Shown: positions 53,687 through 63,182 of the stretch, in pieces | Numbering within the stretch: position 1 is the stretch's first letter | Layout of the letters: each line of letters begins with the position of its first letter | From: Lactobacillaceae bacterium | GTDB lineage: Bacteria > Bacillota > Bacilli > Lactobacillales > Lactobacillaceae | Direction: 5' to 3' | Length of the DNA stretch: 64,000 bases | Assembly: GCA_031289015.1 (NCBI GenBank) | Contig: JAITQG010000048.1 | Span: forward strand, 1-64,000 | Translations under genes and position numbers: made by a program | Notes under the pieces: model-generated | The model's input: only the letters and a program-made list of their open reading frames with translations | Database searches by the model: none | Told to the model about the DNA's origin: nothing

Positions 53687-53705
53687 GTAAATGATAATTT
53701 AGTCG
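53687..53705 (+). repeat. hsdS recombination repeat, copy 1 (gtaaatgataatttagtcg)
   Basis: Identical 19 nt to copy 2. Confidence 0.9.
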
Positions 53706-54805
53706 CCTAACTCTATTGATCCGTTTAATAGTTTAGGTAAAAGAGTATCTCGAATCTTGGTTAAATATTCAATTTCAATAATGTTCTCAGCGTACTTTTT
53801 AAACAATGGTGAAACTTTTTTTGAAAATGATAATTGTTTGGCTATATCAACCACTTTCATCGGCATCGATTCAATATGAGAGGGATAAATATGCGGTTGT
53901 GCCGAGCCGGTTTGTAAATCAAATATTTCAGATTGACGTTTTCGTAACATGACATACCAGAAATAAACCGATTCGCTAATTCTTTCATCTATGAAGGATG
54001 AATCAGATGACCAAACTGGTTCAGTCCAAATATTTACGAACCCAGCATTAGCACCCGATGCTGAAATTGTCACAACTGGTGCTTTTGTATTGGCTACATT
54101 ATGATATGTTGCAGGTGATAGGCCACCTGCAATCACTGGAATAGACCCTGGAATTGCATCCTTCGATAAAAGCCCTTTGCCACGCTTAGGGTTAATATAA
54201 TAACCAATTGTTGTTTCAGCATTAGTTATATCTGGAAAATCAGAACTGAACATAGTTGTTGCTAGCTCAAGTAAATTATCATTTATAGCCTTGTTCAAGG
54301 TTATTTTTTTATCAATCGGCTCAAGAATTGATACTATTTTTTTCTGAACATTAACTGAAGTTTCCATCAGTTCAACAGATCCCAAAGCATTAATAGTGAG
54401 CGCTTGTTGAGTAGAACCAATAACCTTTTCGTTAATTGAATTTTGACCCAGTGCAGATTCTAGATAATACTTTAAAAATTGAGGATATATTCTGTCTGTA
54501 TCAAAGTCAGTAATCTGTGTTACGTTACCGTCTTTATAGTAAAAGGGTAGGTCTTGTATTTTAGCCTGAAATATTGAACCAATTGTACCAACTGACGTGA
54601 CAAATATATCGTCAGCTTCAGGTACCCCAAACCTATCAGAAATTTCTTTATATCTTTGTTCTGAAATGAACAGCGGATTTACGTTGCTTCCTTTTGACTT
54701 TAAGGTAATTTCTTTGCCCCTAAAAAATGGTATTCCCTCTACAACATACTCGCTAGCAAATATACGCTTACTGGATTTAACACTAGCAACTTCTTCAATT
54801 CGCAT
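53699..54805 (-). CDS. hsdS: Type I specificity subunit HsdS2 (two TRDs)
   Basis: Central INDNLLELATTMF; C-terminal IRDTLLPKLLNGSIELGD; good RBS (AGGAG) before ATG 54805. Confidence 0.9.
   Translation of the reverse strand: MRIEEVASVKSSKRIFASEYVVEGIPFFRGKEITLKSKGSNVNPLFISEQRYKEISDRFGVPEADDIFVTSVGTIGSIFQAKIQDLPFYYKDGNVTQITDFDTDRIYPQFLKYYLESALGQNSINEKVIGSTQQALTINALGSVELMETSVNVQKKIVSILEPIDKKITLNKAINDNLLELATTMFSSDFPDITNAETTIGYYINPKRGKGLLSKDAIPGSIPVIAGGLSPATYHNVANTKAPVVTISASGANAGFVNIWTEPVWSSDSSFIDERISESVYFWYVMLRKRQSEIFDLQTGSAQPHIYPSHIESMPMKVVDIAKQLSFSKKVSPLFKKYAENIIEIEYLTKIRDTLLPKLLNGSIELGD
54272..54285 (-). repeat. hsdS recombination repeat, copy 4 (inverted; taaattatcattta)
   Basis: Reverse complement of the core taaatgataattta; encodes INDNL of HsdS2. 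Confidence 0.85.
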
Positions 54806-54815
54806 TTTTTCTCTC

Positions 54816-55799
54816 CTATCCAATAAATTTTCTATGTGCATTTTTAACATTGGTTTGATTAACCATTGCGTAATGCAACGTTGTATCAATCCTTACATGC
54901 CCAAGTAATCTTTGCACTTGCTCAACCGGCATTCCTTTGTCAATTGCTTTTGTAGCCAATGTACGTCTGAATCGATGCGGATGCACTTTTGTAATTTTTG
55001 CTCGAGAACCAAGCTCTCTCAACATACTTTCCACACCACTAATACTCAATCTTGTATTCGGATGCTTCTTAGACACCCATAGCGCTTCGTTATTATCAAC
55101 GCGACTATCAAGATAGTTCAGAATGTGAAGCTTGCTTCTTGCATCAAAGTACACTTCACGCTGCGAGTTACCTTTTCCTAGAACAATACACGATCTTTCA
55201 TTAAAGTTGATATCGCTACGATTTAGTTTCACCAACTCACCCACACGTACCCCGGTTGAATTTAGAAACTCAACTATCGTGAGATCACGAATATTGTCTG
55301 TACTGTCTCGTAGTATTTCAACATTTTCGTCGGTAAACGCTTCGTTCACAACTTTCATTTGCTTAACCTTGTGAATACGTCGCACAGGGCTTTTGCCAAT
55401 ATAATCTTCGTCTTCAAGCCAGGAAAAGAAACTAGAAAATATGCGTCGAATGTTATCCATAGTGACATTACTTGAGCCATTCGCATCTTGATATTCTGCA
55501 AGATACTCTCGTAAATCATTTGTTGAAATCAATTTAATCCATTTATCTATGCTTTCTAACAGCTTACGAATCGTGTTTTCATAGTATTTTAGCGACTTTT
55601 CAGAACACCCTTCCACCTTCTTGGCTGCTATAAACGCCCCGACAAAATCCTGGTTTGACATGGTAGTTGAATCTGTTGCGACCGTCATTTCATAACCATT
55701 TAGTCTAGCATCCATTATTTGTGCGACAATATCACATTGTGTGGTGGATAGTTGCCCCTGAAGTTCTGAAACAACATCCTGAATAAACTTATCTTTCAT
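54816..55799 (-). CDS. Tyrosine recombinase linked to hsdS
   Basis: STGVRVGELVKLNRSD, HPHRFRRTLATKA, LLGHVRIDTTLHYA. Confidence 0.93.
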   Translation of the reverse strand: MKDKFIQDVVSELQGQLSTTQCDIVAQIMDARLNGYEMTVATDSTTMSNQDFVGAFIAAKKVEGCSEKSLKYYENTIRKLLESIDKWIKLISTNDLREYLAEYQDANGSSNVTMDNIRRIFSSFFSWLEDEDYIGKSPVRRIHKVKQMKVVNEAFTDENVEILRDSTDNIRDLTIVEFLNSTGVRVGELVKLNRSDINFNERSCIVLGKGNSQREVYFDARSKLHILNYLDSRVDNNEALWVSKKHPNTRLSISGVESMLRELGSRAKITKVHPHRFRRTLATKAIDKGMPVEQVQRLLGHVRIDTTLHYAMVNQTNVKNAHRKFIG

Positions 55800-55862
55800 C
55801 GTGACGCTCCCTTGGCTTAATGAAAGAATTATACCAAGCGACATCGATTCGCTAGTTAGCGA

Positions 55863-55881
55863 GTAAATGATAATTTAGTCG
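55863..55881 (+). repeat. hsdS recombination repeat, copy 2
   Basis: gtaaatgataatttagtcg. Confidence 0.9.
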
Positions 55882-56519
55882 AGTTGGCTTTATCATTATT
55901 TGATCAGGAAATTAATTTGCACAGGTTAAATTGTAAAAAAATAGAGTTACAGTCTTTAGTGGAAGTTCGGGATGGAACACATGATTCACCAAAAAATACT
56001 TCAGATGGATATCCACTGGTAACTTCAAAACATATTAAAGGTAATTCAATTGATTTTAGTACAACAAAGAAAATATCAAAATTTGATTACTTGAATATTA
56101 ACCAAAGAAGTAAAGTCGATATTGGAGATATATTGATTTCCATGATTGGAACTGTTGGTATTGTCCATCTTGTTCGTAATATGGATTTAAAATATGCAAT
56201 AAAAAATATTGGACTCATCAAAACATCGGTGGATAATCAATTTAAATACTTGATTTATTTATCAATGCTATCGCAGTATGGCCAAGATTATGTTAAACAA
56301 CATTTAGCTGGGAGTACTCAGCAATATCTAAGTCTAACTGAACTACGCAAATTTCAAATTCCGATGTTACCCGAAGAAAAACTAGAAATGTTTAATGATA
56401 CAGTTATCCCAATTTTCAATGAAATATCATCTTTATCTGATCAAATTTTATGGTTAACCGAATTACGAGATACCCTACTTCCCAAACTACTCAATGGTGA
56501 GATCGATTTAAGCAACTAA
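55866..56519 (+). pseudogene. Silent, inverted HsdS C-terminal half-cassette (TRD2-A)
   Basis: In-frame NDNLVELALSLFDQEI...LTELRDTLLPKLLNGEIDLSN*; no RBS/ATG; only convincing + strand coding segment in the window. Confidence 0.9.
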
Positions 56520-57017
56520 ATTATCATTTATCTTTTTATTCTTCGCTATCTTTCTATCAAGCGACTGTAATGTATTACCAATTTTTTCTTGGATTAACCT
56601 ATCATCAGGAATCGTAATTTCCAAGCTAGCCATTTCCTTTTTATTAATAGAAGTGAATACCGTCCCATTAGATTGCGAATCCACAACACCACCAATACTT
56701 TTGAGGGTATAGAAAAGAAATGTTTGATCCACTTTTTTTGAATGTACGGCTGCGAGTCCTCTACCAATCGCAATTTTTCTATCAGCCCAGTTCACATTCC
56801 CAACGGGAGCTCTAACGCTAAATAAAATATCCCCTTCTTCAGCTTCTCTATTGAATTCAGTAGTAAACGTGTCAAATTGGGGAACCAAATCACCAAAGGT
56901 TCTAACACCTTGCAAAAACTCAATTCCATTTCCAGAATGGTTGAAAAAATCTGATTTCGGTGATTGTCCCATTGTAATATTCGCAACATCTCCCAACCTA
57001 ACTTTACTAAATTTCAT
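56508..57017 (-). CDS. hsdS: HsdS1, truncated single-TRD form in this orientation
   Basis: MKFSKVRLGDVANITMGQSPKSDFF...IAKNKKINDNLVA*; start overlaps the hsdM end. Confidence 0.88.
   Translation of the reverse strand: MKFSKVRLGDVANITMGQSPKSDFFNHSGNGIEFLQGVRTFGDLVPQFDTFTTEFNREAEEGDILFSVRAPVGNVNWADRKIAIGRGLAAVHSKKVDQTFLFYTLKSIGGVVDSQSNGTVFTSINKKEMASLEITIPDDRLIQEKIGNTLQSLDRKIAKNKKINDNLVA
56515..56530 (-). repeat. hsdS recombination repeat, copy 3 (inverted; actaaattatcattta)
   Basis: Reverse complement of taaatgataatttagt; encodes the end of HsdS1. Confidence 0.9.
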
Positions 57018-58664: not shown

Positions 58665-60233
58665 TTAATAGTGATTCTTAACTGAATCCACAAGAGATTC
58701 AACACCCAGGTGAGAATCATCATCGTTTGAAGTAAATTGACGAAGCAGCTCCATAATCTGGCTCTCAGTCTTAACGATCTCATCATCCAACTCTGCAAGC
58801 TCCTTAGCAACAGCGACAATATCTAATTGCTCTTCAGCTGCAAAGTTTTCAACGTAACGCGGAATATTTAGATTAAAATCATTGGCCTCAATTTCATCCC
58901 ATGATGCTAAATGCGCAAAATCTTGAATGTCTTCACGCTGCTTATAAGCATCGTAAATGCTATAAATATTTTCTTCAGTCATGATGTTTTGGCGACGGAC
59001 CTTTTCAAATTGCTCTGAGGCGTCAATAAACAAGACATCTCTTTCAGCTCGCTGCTTCTTCAAAACTAATATGACAGTTGGAATGGCTGTATCTAGCATA
59101 ATGTTTCCAGGCAACCCAATCACCGCCTCAATATGGCCATCATACAATAAATGTTCGCGAATCCTACCTTCAGATCCACCACGGAATAACACACCTAATG
59201 GCATCGATACCACCATTGTGCCGGTATCTGCTAAGTGATCAAGGCCTTCAAGAATGAAAGCATAATCTGATTTTGATTTTGGTGGCACAATGCCATCGAC
59301 TAAATCAAACCGCGCAATATTAAGCTTTGATTCAGCATCCCATGCCGTTGAATATGGCGGGTGCATCAAGACAGCATCAAACTTTTTAACGGCTTGTTTG
59401 TCCCAATCGCGCAACAATGTATTTTCATTGGCGATTGTTTCCTCATTGAATTCAACCCCATGCAAAATCAAGTTCATGCGGGCAATGTTATAAGCTTCTG
59501 TCGATAATTCAGTGCCGTATAAGGTAACATCACGACCATAACCCGCCTTTGCTCGTGCATGAAGTAGTAGTGATCCGACTCCCATCGTAGGATCATATAT
59601 TGCTAGGGAATTACTTGTTTTTTGATCATCCAGGGCGATTAATGATAGCAATTCCGAAACAGCAGCTGTGCTATAAAATCCGGCCTGTCGCTTTCCAACC
59701 ATAGTAGCCGCCCTGTCAAGCAATTCACTAAACACTGCGCCGATACGGTTAAAACTGTAATCAGGTAATTCCAAGCGTGATATTTCTGTCATCAATACGT
59801 TGAAATTTAATGATCGCGTCTTTAAATCAACCCCGAATTCTGTGAAGTTCATATCAAGATCGCTAAAAATGTCCGCCATGTTTTCAGAGTCTTCTTCGAC
59901 CAGCTGAAGTGTTTTAGAAAACCGCTCCAACCATTCATCCTCCGAATAATTTCCATTCGCTCCAAAGCTAGTGGTACTAGGGCTTAAGTAATAATTCGAA
60001 TGAACAAAAACATGCTTAAATTCTCCATTTTGATACGCTCGTTGGATATTCCATACATTCGTGTCTTCAAAGCCAGCTTCCTTCCCCAATTGTTCCAAAA
60101 AGTGGGCTGAAAGCAAATGGTAAAAGGTCATGGGAATAAGGTATTTGATGATGATTTTTGTATTAACGTGACTCCGAAGTAATTGAGTTGTATCTAGTAA
60201 TAAGTCTTCAACCATGCTATTTGTTTTAGGCAT
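58665..60233 (-). CDS. Second HsdM-like N6-adenine methyltransferase
   Basis: YDPTMGVGSLLLHA motif I; motif IV reads HPPY. Confidence 0.88.
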   Translation of the reverse strand: MPKTNSMVEDLLLDTTQLLRSHVNTKIIIKYLIPMTFYHLLSAHFLEQLGKEAGFEDTNVWNIQRAYQNGEFKHVFVHSNYYLSPSTTSFGANGNYSEDEWLERFSKTLQLVEEDSENMADIFSDLDMNFTEFGVDLKTRSLNFNVLMTEISRLELPDYSFNRIGAVFSELLDRAATMVGKRQAGFYSTAAVSELLSLIALDDQKTSNSLAIYDPTMGVGSLLLHARAKAGYGRDVTLYGTELSTEAYNIARMNLILHGVEFNEETIANENTLLRDWDKQAVKKFDAVLMHPPYSTAWDAESKLNIARFDLVDGIVPPKSKSDYAFILEGLDHLADTGTMVVSMPLGVLFRGGSEGRIREHLLYDGHIEAVIGLPGNIMLDTAIPTVILVLKKQRAERDVLFIDASEQFEKVRRQNIMTEENIYSIYDAYKQREDIQDFAHLASWDEIEANDFNLNIPRYVENFAAEEQLDIVAVAKELAELDDEIVKTESQIMELLRQFTSNDDDSHLGVESLVDSVKNHY

Positions 60234-60798
60234 TGGTAAGCTCCTTTTCAATCAATGCGAATGTGAGTTTTGTTTGTAATTGTTGTTGTGCATCCCTCAA
60301 GGCATTGCGGTGCAGTGTCTTGATATAGGTTTCGCCAAGCTGCCGTTGTAATGCTGGATCAACAAGTGGAATATCAATTCCACCTAAATCACGCAGGTTA
60401 ATCGACTTTACTAGTGCGGATCCCTGGGTAGCTTTTTCGATTTGGCGCCGCACAGCCGAATTTTCATTGAATAGATAGACGAAGTACCAACTATCAATGG
60501 TTTCGTCTGAAAATTCTACCAATACGAAGTGGCCGGACAATTTGACCGTACCAGACAATTCACTGACAACTGCAGCTTTACGGGTGTTTGTGCTAATGAC
60601 GACACTACCTGGTGTGACTTTTTCAGTGACATTTGAAGGTTCCACGGTTGTTTGTTGGATGTGAAGTCGTGGATTTTCAGTAACCACCGTCAAATCACGA
60701 TCAAACATTTTGATGTCATACAGTGTGTTTGAGCTTTCAGACTTACGAGCAGTTGCTGCAAACCCTTTAGATAGTGTTGCTAATTCAGTTAATTTCAT
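60226..60798 (-). CDS. Single-TRD HsdS-like protein (190 aa)
   Basis: KLTELATLSKGFAATARK.. start, C-terminal helix LRDAQQQLQTKLTFALIE; overlaps HsdM-2. Confidence 0.8.
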   Translation of the reverse strand: MKLTELATLSKGFAATARKSESSNTLYDIKMFDRDLTVVTENPRLHIQQTTVEPSNVTEKVTPGSVVISTNTRKAAVVSELSGTVKLSGHFVLVEFSDETIDSWYFVYLFNENSAVRRQIEKATQGSALVKSINLRDLGGIDIPLVDPALQRQLGETYIKTLHRNALRDAQQQLQTKLTFALIEKELTNA

Positions 60799-61136: not shown

Positions 61137-63182
61137 TTATTGTTTTCTCAAAGTATCATCAATAAGATTCCCTTCAAAATCTGTCCAGGCTGACCAACCA
61201 TTAATCTTTCCTCCAATTAATAGAGACGCCGCATTTGAGGGAGAGCTCGCGATATACTCTTGAACAAATATAATCCCGCCAATTTCTTCTTGGATTATCT
61301 CTTTCTCAAGTAACTCATCTCTAACTTCCTTCAAAGTATCAGACTCAATATCGCTAGCATTGGAACGAACTTGAGCGCCTGGATAAATTTTTACAGTATC
61401 ATCTTCGTTTAGGTATCCTTCTGCTTTAATTCCTGACTTATTAAGATAGATATTACGACTGCCATCATCATCGTATGTTCCGGCAGCTCGTTGATAAGGG
61501 TACATCTTTATTAACTCACTAATTAATTTATTGCTTCGTTCCTCAATAGACTGATTAGTCCACTCTCCCATATTATACAAATCTTTGTTCATCTGAATAT
61601 GCAATGTATCCTCAAAGATTTTTTTCTTCGTTTCAAAATCTTTGTTACCCGCTGCTGAGTTGTCGATTTTCGATACCAACGTCAAATTACCAACCGTGTT
61701 CACAAGCTCTGTATATTCTTCGCCAGATACGCCTGCCTTTTTCTCCCAATATGGAGTACTGGTTTGAGGCATAATGTGTTCAACCGATAAGGAATCCAAA
61801 TCAACTTTAGCTGTGTTATTAATATTTTCGAGTTTTTCCAAGAACCAACGAATCAGCTTACTTTTAGCGTACGCATTCATGTTTATCATGTTTGATTTCA
61901 AAGCCTTGTCTATTGGCATTGCCATGTTATTGGACTTGTTATTCTCTACAAGAACATACTTGACTATATCTATAAAGTTTTCAGATCCTTCATCAGCCAC
62001 ATATTTTTTTACATTCTTTAGAAATGTTGGAAATGCCCTCGCAACTCGGCTAGTATCATCACCATTAAAGCTACGTCGAATTTGATATACGTTTACTATT
62101 TCGAGCATCTTATAAAACTGATTTTCTGTTATTTTCTGTTCTTCACGAAGCCACTCCGACATTTCCAGCACAAATGGCGCAGGCATCATACTTTCTTGAC
62201 TTTGGAAGTCAGACAAAATCTCCTTATATTGACCAGAAGGTTGCTTATAGTACAGGATTTCAAAGTACTTGGCATATCTAACAACTTTCTTTATTAATTC
62301 TTCGTCAGATGAGCTTTTCACTTTTTCCAACCAATAATTCTTAAATGCAGAATACAACAAATTCTTGGCTGTGTACTCCCCCGTCACTGCAGCTAAGTAA
62401 TACCGGAAAAAGTCTTCCATATGTTTGGAGTCGACAAAAATATCTTCTAATTTTTGCCAATACTTATTGTAAAGTTCAGTCTGTTCCTCATTACTTTTAT
62501 TCATCATTATAAAGTTACGCATTAAGTCAGAGGCAGTGAGCCGTTCCCCTGTAGAGTTAATACTTTCAAAGATTTGTTGGGCATTATCTTTCTCGTCCAA
62601 TTCTATATAAACAATTTCAAATCGTTTTAATGCATACAACACTCGATCAAAAGAGTATATCTCAATCAACTTGCCAAGCTCACTCTGTAAATACAGAAAA
62701 TTTTGCGTAATATTGCTGTTACTTGACTTATCCAATTGATCATAGCGGTTGCTAGCAATTAATGAGTATTCCTTTCCATCTGCAACAGCTGGATACAGTC
62801 GTTGATAAAACTTACTATCCTTTGGCTCAGCTTGATTAGTCAAATAGGTATTGTCAAGCTCTTTTTTTCGATAAATATCAGCGGCAAATGTTCGCATGGC
62901 ATGCACAATGAGGAACATAGTAACTAATCTTTGTTGCCCATCAACAACTGAACGTTCAGTTTTGTAGTTACTATTGATTAGCTTTAAATACACGATTGTC
63001 CCTAAGAAATGTCCTTTTGCATCATTTTCGTCCTCAATTAGTTTTACAAGGTCACTCATCAACTGGACAAGTTGTTTTTTTACCGTCCAAGTATATTTCC
63101 GCTGATATACAGGAATTACAAATTGTTTTCCAATTGCTTCAGGAATAAACTCATCTAGTAATTTTCTTGGTTTTGAATCCAT
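61137..63182 (-). CDS. GmrSD-like DUF262 + DUF1524 (HNH) protein with DUF4357-like C-terminus
   Basis: SVVDGQQRLVTMFLI; SVEHIMPQT..NTVGNLTLVSKIDNSAAGNK; NGWSAWTDFEGNLID. Confidence 0.88.
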   Translation of the reverse strand: MDSKPRKLLDEFIPEAIGKQFVIPVYQRKYTWTVKKQLVQLMSDLVKLIEDENDAKGHFLGTIVYLKLINSNYKTERSVVDGQQRLVTMFLIVHAMRTFAADIYRKKELDNTYLTNQAEPKDSKFYQRLYPAVADGKEYSLIASNRYDQLDKSSNSNITQNFLYLQSELGKLIEIYSFDRVLYALKRFEIVYIELDEKDNAQQIFESINSTGERLTASDLMRNFIMMNKSNEEQTELYNKYWQKLEDIFVDSKHMEDFFRYYLAAVTGEYTAKNLLYSAFKNYWLEKVKSSSDEELIKKVVRYAKYFEILYYKQPSGQYKEILSDFQSQESMMPAPFVLEMSEWLREEQKITENQFYKMLEIVNVYQIRRSFNGDDTSRVARAFPTFLKNVKKYVADEGSENFIDIVKYVLVENNKSNNMAMPIDKALKSNMINMNAYAKSKLIRWFLEKLENINNTAKVDLDSLSVEHIMPQTSTPYWEKKAGVSGEEYTELVNTVGNLTLVSKIDNSAAGNKDFETKKKIFEDTLHIQMNKDLYNMGEWTNQSIEERSNKLISELIKMYPYQRAAGTYDDDGSRNIYLNKSGIKAEGYLNEDDTVKIYPGAQVRSNASDIESDTLKEVRDELLEKEIIQEEIGGIIFVQEYIASSPSNAASLLIGGKINGWSAWTDFEGNLIDDTLRKQ

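Follow-up and report, generated by a model that had tools for sequence, protein, structure and literature searches.

Genes and neighbourhood of the locus

We report that the window (the whole stretch of DNA analysed, 64,000 nucleotides) carries a type I restriction-modification (R-M) locus in which hsdR, hsdM and hsdS are all present and intact, and that a tyrosine recombinase gene is situated within it (Table 1). Starting at hsdM, the parts follow one another as TRD1a - site - 2B (reversed) - site - recombinase - TRD1b - site - 2A - site - hsdR. The recombinase and hsdS pieces proposed in a first-pass annotation, as well as hsdM and hsdR, were upheld by Pfam and NCBIfam. In addition, the recombinase matches the XerC-like structure 4a8e (4.8e-22), and HsdS2 matches the MG438 HsdS structure 1ydx over residues 74-360 (7e-08). 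Three Methylase_S matches were obtained in the genome, all inside this locus. An ATG is present in hsdS1, the recombinase gene and hsdS2, and hsdS2, which lies close behind the recombinase gene, has a clear Shine-Dalgarno sequence (GGATAGGAGAGAAAAAATG).

Table 1. Predicted genes, cassettes and recombination sites of the hsd locus (positions in the window)
Feature	Position	Strand	Evidence
hsdM, 510 aa	57007..58539	-	Pfam N6_Mtase 1.4e-108, HsdM_N 1.8e-26
hsdS1 half gene (TRD1a and central region), 169 aa, end KKINDNLVA*	56508..57017	-	Methylase_S 6.6e-20; frame read
Recombination site 1 (core TAAATGATAATTTA)	56517..56530	-	Repeat and core searches, genome count
Half-HsdS1 tail Val-Ala-stop, dual-coded with the last codons of cassette 2B (L-S-N)	56508..56516	-	Sequence; kept in relatives
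Silent TRD2B cassette in opposite orientation to hsdS1; reading frame open from 55860 on, across the site	55884..56519	+	Methylase_S 2e-09
Recombination site 2	55864..55877	+	Repeat and core searches, genome count
Tyrosine recombinase, XerA type, ATG at 55799	54816..55799	-	Phage_integrase 1.5e-30; NF040815 9.2e-70, above cut-off
hsdS2, full length, 368 aa: TRD1b (5' half) and TRD2A cassette (3' half, from 54271 down)	53699..54805	-	Methylase_S 2.2e-14
Recombination site 3, within hsdS2	54272..54285	-	Repeat and core searches, genome count
Recombination site 4, overlapping the hsdS2 stop codon	53688..53701	+	Repeat and core searches, genome count
hsdR, 1051 aa	50486..53641	-	TIGR00348 hsdR 3.5e-170

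The first-pass annotation implied that the locus is inactive until a segment is flipped, but HsdS2 (TRD1b-2A) is already complete. It also considered the silent cassette the sole convincing coding segment on the plus strand, as expected after a recent inversion. The former part holds, the cassette being the only plus-strand ORF of more than 100 aa in the window without a longer minus-strand ORF over it, while for this genome a recent inversion is conjectural.

Just upstream of hsdM, on the minus strand, are genes for a second, hsdM-like N6-methyltransferase of 528 aa (58665-60251) and for a 190-aa half-HsdS-like protein (60226-60798), a pair that is possibly an accessory partner. The L. salivarius locus discussed below is preceded by a comparable half-S and methylase pair (methylase about 31% identical), and in Lactococcus plasmids the equivalent upstream place is taken by an N-6 DNA methylase; in two of these plasmid loci (L008/L016, 9216-10712) a DUF3800 gene lies between the last site and hsdR. 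A gene for a GmrSD-type (type IV) restriction enzyme (61137-63182, minus strand) adjoins the locus, and since a 65% identical enzyme is found beside one homologous locus (L160) this looks like a shared defence island.

Recombination sites and predicted layouts

The four repeats reported in the first-pass annotation are exact in a 14-nt core, TAAATGATAATTTA, and alternate in orientation. These are the only copies in the whole 2,082,588-base genome, and the reversed pattern, used as a control for this count, gave no match in the 2.08 Mb; chance is no reasonable explanation for the four repeats. A 19-nt version of the repeat is identical at 53687 and 55863, which constitute a direct pair, and the longest exact inverted pair in the locus is a perfect 16-nt one at 55864/56515. 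The sites read (I)-N-D-N-L in the hsdS frame and are located at the hsdS central-domain junctions, such that identical repeats of opposite orientation mark the TRD boundaries in frame. A search for alternative junctions in the genome's own assembly gave none, only the four cores being present. By the tested features the locus belongs among the recombinase-linked invertible hsdS loci.

Enumerating all inversions between opposite sites in silico resulted in 16 layouts, every one in frame, with four full HsdS products (1a-2A, 357 aa; 1a-2B, 380 aa; 1b-2A, 368 aa; 1b-2B, 391 aa) and half products of 169 and 180 aa. Flipping 55864-56530 gave the 380-aa HsdS1 ending LLNGEIDLSN that had been predicted. 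The pairing 53687/56530, previously listed among the predicted junctions, merely turns the whole block and does not by itself change HsdS1.

Homologous loci with four sites

A close relative of the recombinase was identified in 15 of 401 genomes of the family (the present one included) and in 9 of 40 genera, with further ones in the order and phylum, and in none of the 28 other genomes of the genus. A megablast of the whole region against plasmids gave no match. Recombinases that are 56-60% identical and lie between hsdS pieces are encoded on plasmids of Enterococcus faecium, Lactococcus cremoris, Ligilactobacillus salivarius and Latilactobacillus sakei (pRV500).

Sites were predicted around approximately 120 recombinase relatives by searching for any repeated inverted 12-mer, with no sequence assumed. 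The sequence AAAYNNNNATTT was recovered in 39 of the 40 loci having a repeated inverted word, and it occurs as a quartet (+ - + -) in about 40 loci, mostly from Bacillota and including Lactobacillaceae, Enterococcus, Lactococcus and Clostridia; for a few loci that carry metagenome labels from outside Bacillota, the copies may be due to binning. The usual positions, counted from the recombinase start, are about -735 (+), -82 (-), +1510 (+) and +2094 (-), and the flanking ORFs are Methylase_S in 37 of 41 tested. Within a locus the copies are alike, and between loci the four central bases vary (GATA, CATC, ACTA, GAAA, AATA), as expected of strand-exchange sites. The suggestion that layout and repeat may be new is therefore not supported, both layout and core being common to these loci and L. 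reuteri LreRMII being a published relative (PMC6122466).

No quartet was found in loci where the recombinase is approximately 52% identical and accompanied by two codirectional full hsdS genes, or in probable Streptococcus-type loci, and both groups were excluded from the state counts below. Loci from Bacteroidales (L025-L093) were handled as a separate design: these recombinase relatives are associated with tandem codirectional TAAATGATAATTTA sites and with another core, TAAATGAGAATTTA, at the cassette ends, an arrangement that suggests loss and gain of cassettes rather than inversion.

Rearrangements in homologous loci

One genome (G301) is available as a single contig in which bases 1-51252 correspond to 2121540-2172769 at 99.9% identity, i.e. 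a 51-kb end overlap of the kind left in an uncircularised chromosome. At its two ends the locus has different layouts: segments 1 and 3 have changed places and are inverted, segment 2 is the same in both, all segments match at 100% identity, and the breakpoints fall at the identical TAAATGATAATTTA core. One of the swapped cassettes has an insertion-like extra of approximately 0.95 kb. We also considered a terminal duplication in place of an uncircularised contig; in either case the same DNA has two layouts. Similar untrimmed overlaps (here L128-L133) could be mined for invertible loci.

The same swap distinguishes the Lactococcus plasmids pJM2A/pUC073A from pUCCL627F, with all segments 100% identical and breakpoints at the equivalent sites. 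In both cases the two cassettes were exchanged and the orientation of the recombinase gene was kept. A third layout, with an inverted cassette, is present in pJM1A, the segment 1 cassette of which is the exact inverse of that of pJM2A. The TRD at the two cassette positions of pJM1A (L016, 6274-9179) is one and the same (635 nt, 100% identity), and this plasmid has thus lost one specificity, perhaps through exchange between plasmid copies.

As read from the sequences, G301 and the plasmid pairs are direct comparative evidence of site-specific rearrangement in homologous loci, as distinct from the strain of the window. The central proposal of the first-pass annotation, an invertible hsdS locus that is linked to a recombinase and has C-terminal TRD cassettes open to exchange, is supported by homologous loci with the same or an equivalent core, which have rearranged exactly at such sites.

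A suggested rule of one complete HsdS at a time

The states of hsdS1 and hsdS2 were scored in 32 complete quartets with the recombinase gene codirectional with hsdM. The combination was half/full in 15 and full/half in 15, with one half/half, one in which a full orientation is interrupted by an insertion (IS-broken), and no full/full. For the 31 intact quartets exclusivity is significant (Fisher P = 6e-8), as it is with one quartet per recombinase cluster (23 clusters; worst case 22/23, P = 3e-6); the null is independent and equally likely states, which shared ancestry weakens, yet both classes occur within clusters. These data suggest, at the level of gene layout, that this type of locus keeps exactly one complete recognition gene at once, although the exclusivity could derive from selection or shared ancestry instead of mechanism, and single inversions do occur, because the recombinase gene is reversed relative to hsdM in four relatives (L010, L019, L023 and L063).

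An inversion through the outer pair of sites combined with one through the inner pair keeps the rule of one full HsdS and reproduces both observed changes. We consider it likely that the locus is a self-rearranging type I R-M locus in which rearrangement usually amounts to exchanging both cassettes. Each cassette would either continue TRD1a (behind hsdM) or TRD1b (behind the recombinase gene) in frame, or sit reversed and silent, and exchange via the outer and inner pairs would leave one full and one half HsdS. In the present genome TRD1b-2A (368 aa) would become TRD1b-2B (391 aa), which would change the sequence that is methylated and restricted. We infer from the sequence that the locus of this genome switches and that specificity changes with it, and, from synteny and by analogy, that its own recombinase is the presumptive agent. 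In S. pneumoniae the tyrosine recombinase PsrA/CreX is required for hsdS inversion at a 15-bp repeat (PMC4948785, PMC6620402), and some SpnIII inversions do not need the local recombinase (PMC6620402).

The first-pass annotation had a simple flip of 55863-56530 as the main switch. Inversion of 55864-56530 alone would join TRD2B to HsdS1, and the locus would alternate between one and two full HsdS. The in-frame 380-aa product, the perfect 16-nt inverted pair and the exactly inverted segment 1 cassette of pJM1A are all in keeping with this. A single flip would, however, break the rule: the two-full state that it would yield is absent from the 32 complete quartets and half/half is seen just once, both clonal comparisons show exchange instead, and the other cassette of pJM1A differs too. 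As the main switch it is thus unlikely. Somewhat less likely still is excision and reintegration via the direct pairs (53688/55864 or 54272/56517), which would move cassettes without inverting them. The direct 19-nt pair is present, the process would keep both one full HsdS and the orientation of the recombinase gene, the tandem direct sites of the Bacteroidales relatives seem built for it, and the mechanism is known from pneumococcal SpnIV/tvr (PMC6265443), but the cassettes in the two cases seen were inverted in addition to being moved, which excision alone would not do. That the repeats are remnants of a locus now fixed is improbable: it would fit the lack of an alternative junction in the own assembly and of a close recombinase in the 28 other genomes of the genus, but the recombinase frame is intact, the four cores are exact, all frames are open, and relatives with the identical core show different layouts within one assembly.

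The C-terminal tail of the half-HsdS

A reversed cassette leaves a truncated HsdS that, for 60 of 77 ends, stops exactly six codons inside the site; the half-HsdS almost always ends NxNL-[A/V]-[A/V]-stop. At the cassette ends of the Bacteroidales loci the six-codon stop is less regular, and these ends are mostly LAV. The last two residues of the 54 distinct six-codon ends, for which the stop was the selection criterion and hence is no independent evidence, are AA (28), VA (13), VV (5), AS (3), IA (2) and others (3), i.e. LAA and LVA constitute 41 of the 54. The tail codons are the reverse complement of the last codons of the cassette (dual coding). On the cassette strand the third position is C in 50 of 54 at each of codons -2 and -1, where the codon usage of the loci themselves predicts 12.9 and 11.0, respectively, and the cassette residue at -1 is variable (R, Y, H, N, S, C, K, D), in contrast to the A or V of the half-HsdS. 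Judged by this excess of third-position C together with the variable cassette residue, selection appears to act on the half-HsdS tail.

Active dimers of half-HsdS subunits are possible. We therefore put forward, tentatively and as less likely than the cassette exchange itself, that the tail of the silent half-HsdS, a subunit produced whatever the layout, acts as a dual-coded C-terminal degron, such that the half subunit would be degraded by ClpXP or another protease and no active half-dimers would form; together with the exchange rule this would give a single specificity at any time. The resemblance to ssrA-type degrons makes this plausible: ssrA tags commonly end LAA, with LVA as a variant that also works (PMC9382460). 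In the present host clpX is present and the tmRNA tag is AKNSNNMAVAA.

Alternatives to a degron are a role in packing or an accessory site at the DNA level, and the tail sequence GYNGCTTAR might be such a site, one-sided in this case. We also considered that the tail is merely part of the recombination site; at 5' cassette ends, however, this core occurs with no GYNGCTTAR, and the core thus does not need the tail sequence.

Relation to known systems

By gene order the nearest published system is LreRMII/lsrA of L. reuteri, with hsdR-hsdS-recombinase-hsdS-hsdM in both; its TRDs were seen in experiments to rearrange, which the authors credit to lsrA and inverted repeats (PMC6122466). Compared by description, LreRMII differs from the present locus in that both HsdSA and HsdSB are reported to have two TRDs and 5' TRDs to be exchanged too (PMC6122466). 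Lactobacillaceae loci with the LreRMII gene order and an approximately 52% identical recombinase (L119, L120) are without a quartet.

The pneumococcal SpnIII/Spn556II system with PsrA (CreX) likewise has a tyrosine recombinase, inversion at a 15-bp repeat inside hsdS and exchange of C-terminal TRDs (PMC4948785, PMC6620402). Unlike the present locus, SpnIII has the proposed core ATTATGGGAA and two long repeats (85 and 298-333 bp) in place of a four-site quartet (PMC6620402), and one transcribed hsdS with silent donors. Here the core is TAAATGATAATTTA, the longest exact inverted pair is 16 nt, and the complete gene is not the hsdM-linked one but hsdS2 behind the recombinase gene. With its different core and layout, the locus does not belong to the SpnIII/CreX subtype.

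The loci in the REBASE survey of invertible hsdS genes by Atack et al. 2020 are alike in having duplicated hsdS genes and inverted repeats within one type I locus, but there the hsdM-linked hsdS is functional, whereas here it is a half gene (PMC7394358). Only exact repeats of 20 bp or longer qualified for the survey (PMC7394358); with 16 nt as the longest exact inverted repeat, the present class would be missed by that rule. The plasmid loci of L. sakei (pRV500), L. salivarius, E. faecium and L. cremoris share the genes and the quartet layout, with other TRDs, and are annotated only as separate hsdS genes; in pRV500 there are two sites, whose core is identical to that studied here. We found no description of the four-site architecture in the open-licence literature, and one may exist beyond it.

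Taken together, the locus is genuine and probably active; its kind is known, and its four-site architecture is distinct and conserved across many loci. For phase-variable type I systems, an exchange over four sites that retains one full HsdS at a time provides a compact rule that can be tested, and the site and tail motifs let such loci be found and their layouts be called from long reads. If the tail is a degron, overlapping antisense coding would silence the off-state product, and this would explain how cells remain without unwanted palindromic specificities from half-HsdS dimers.
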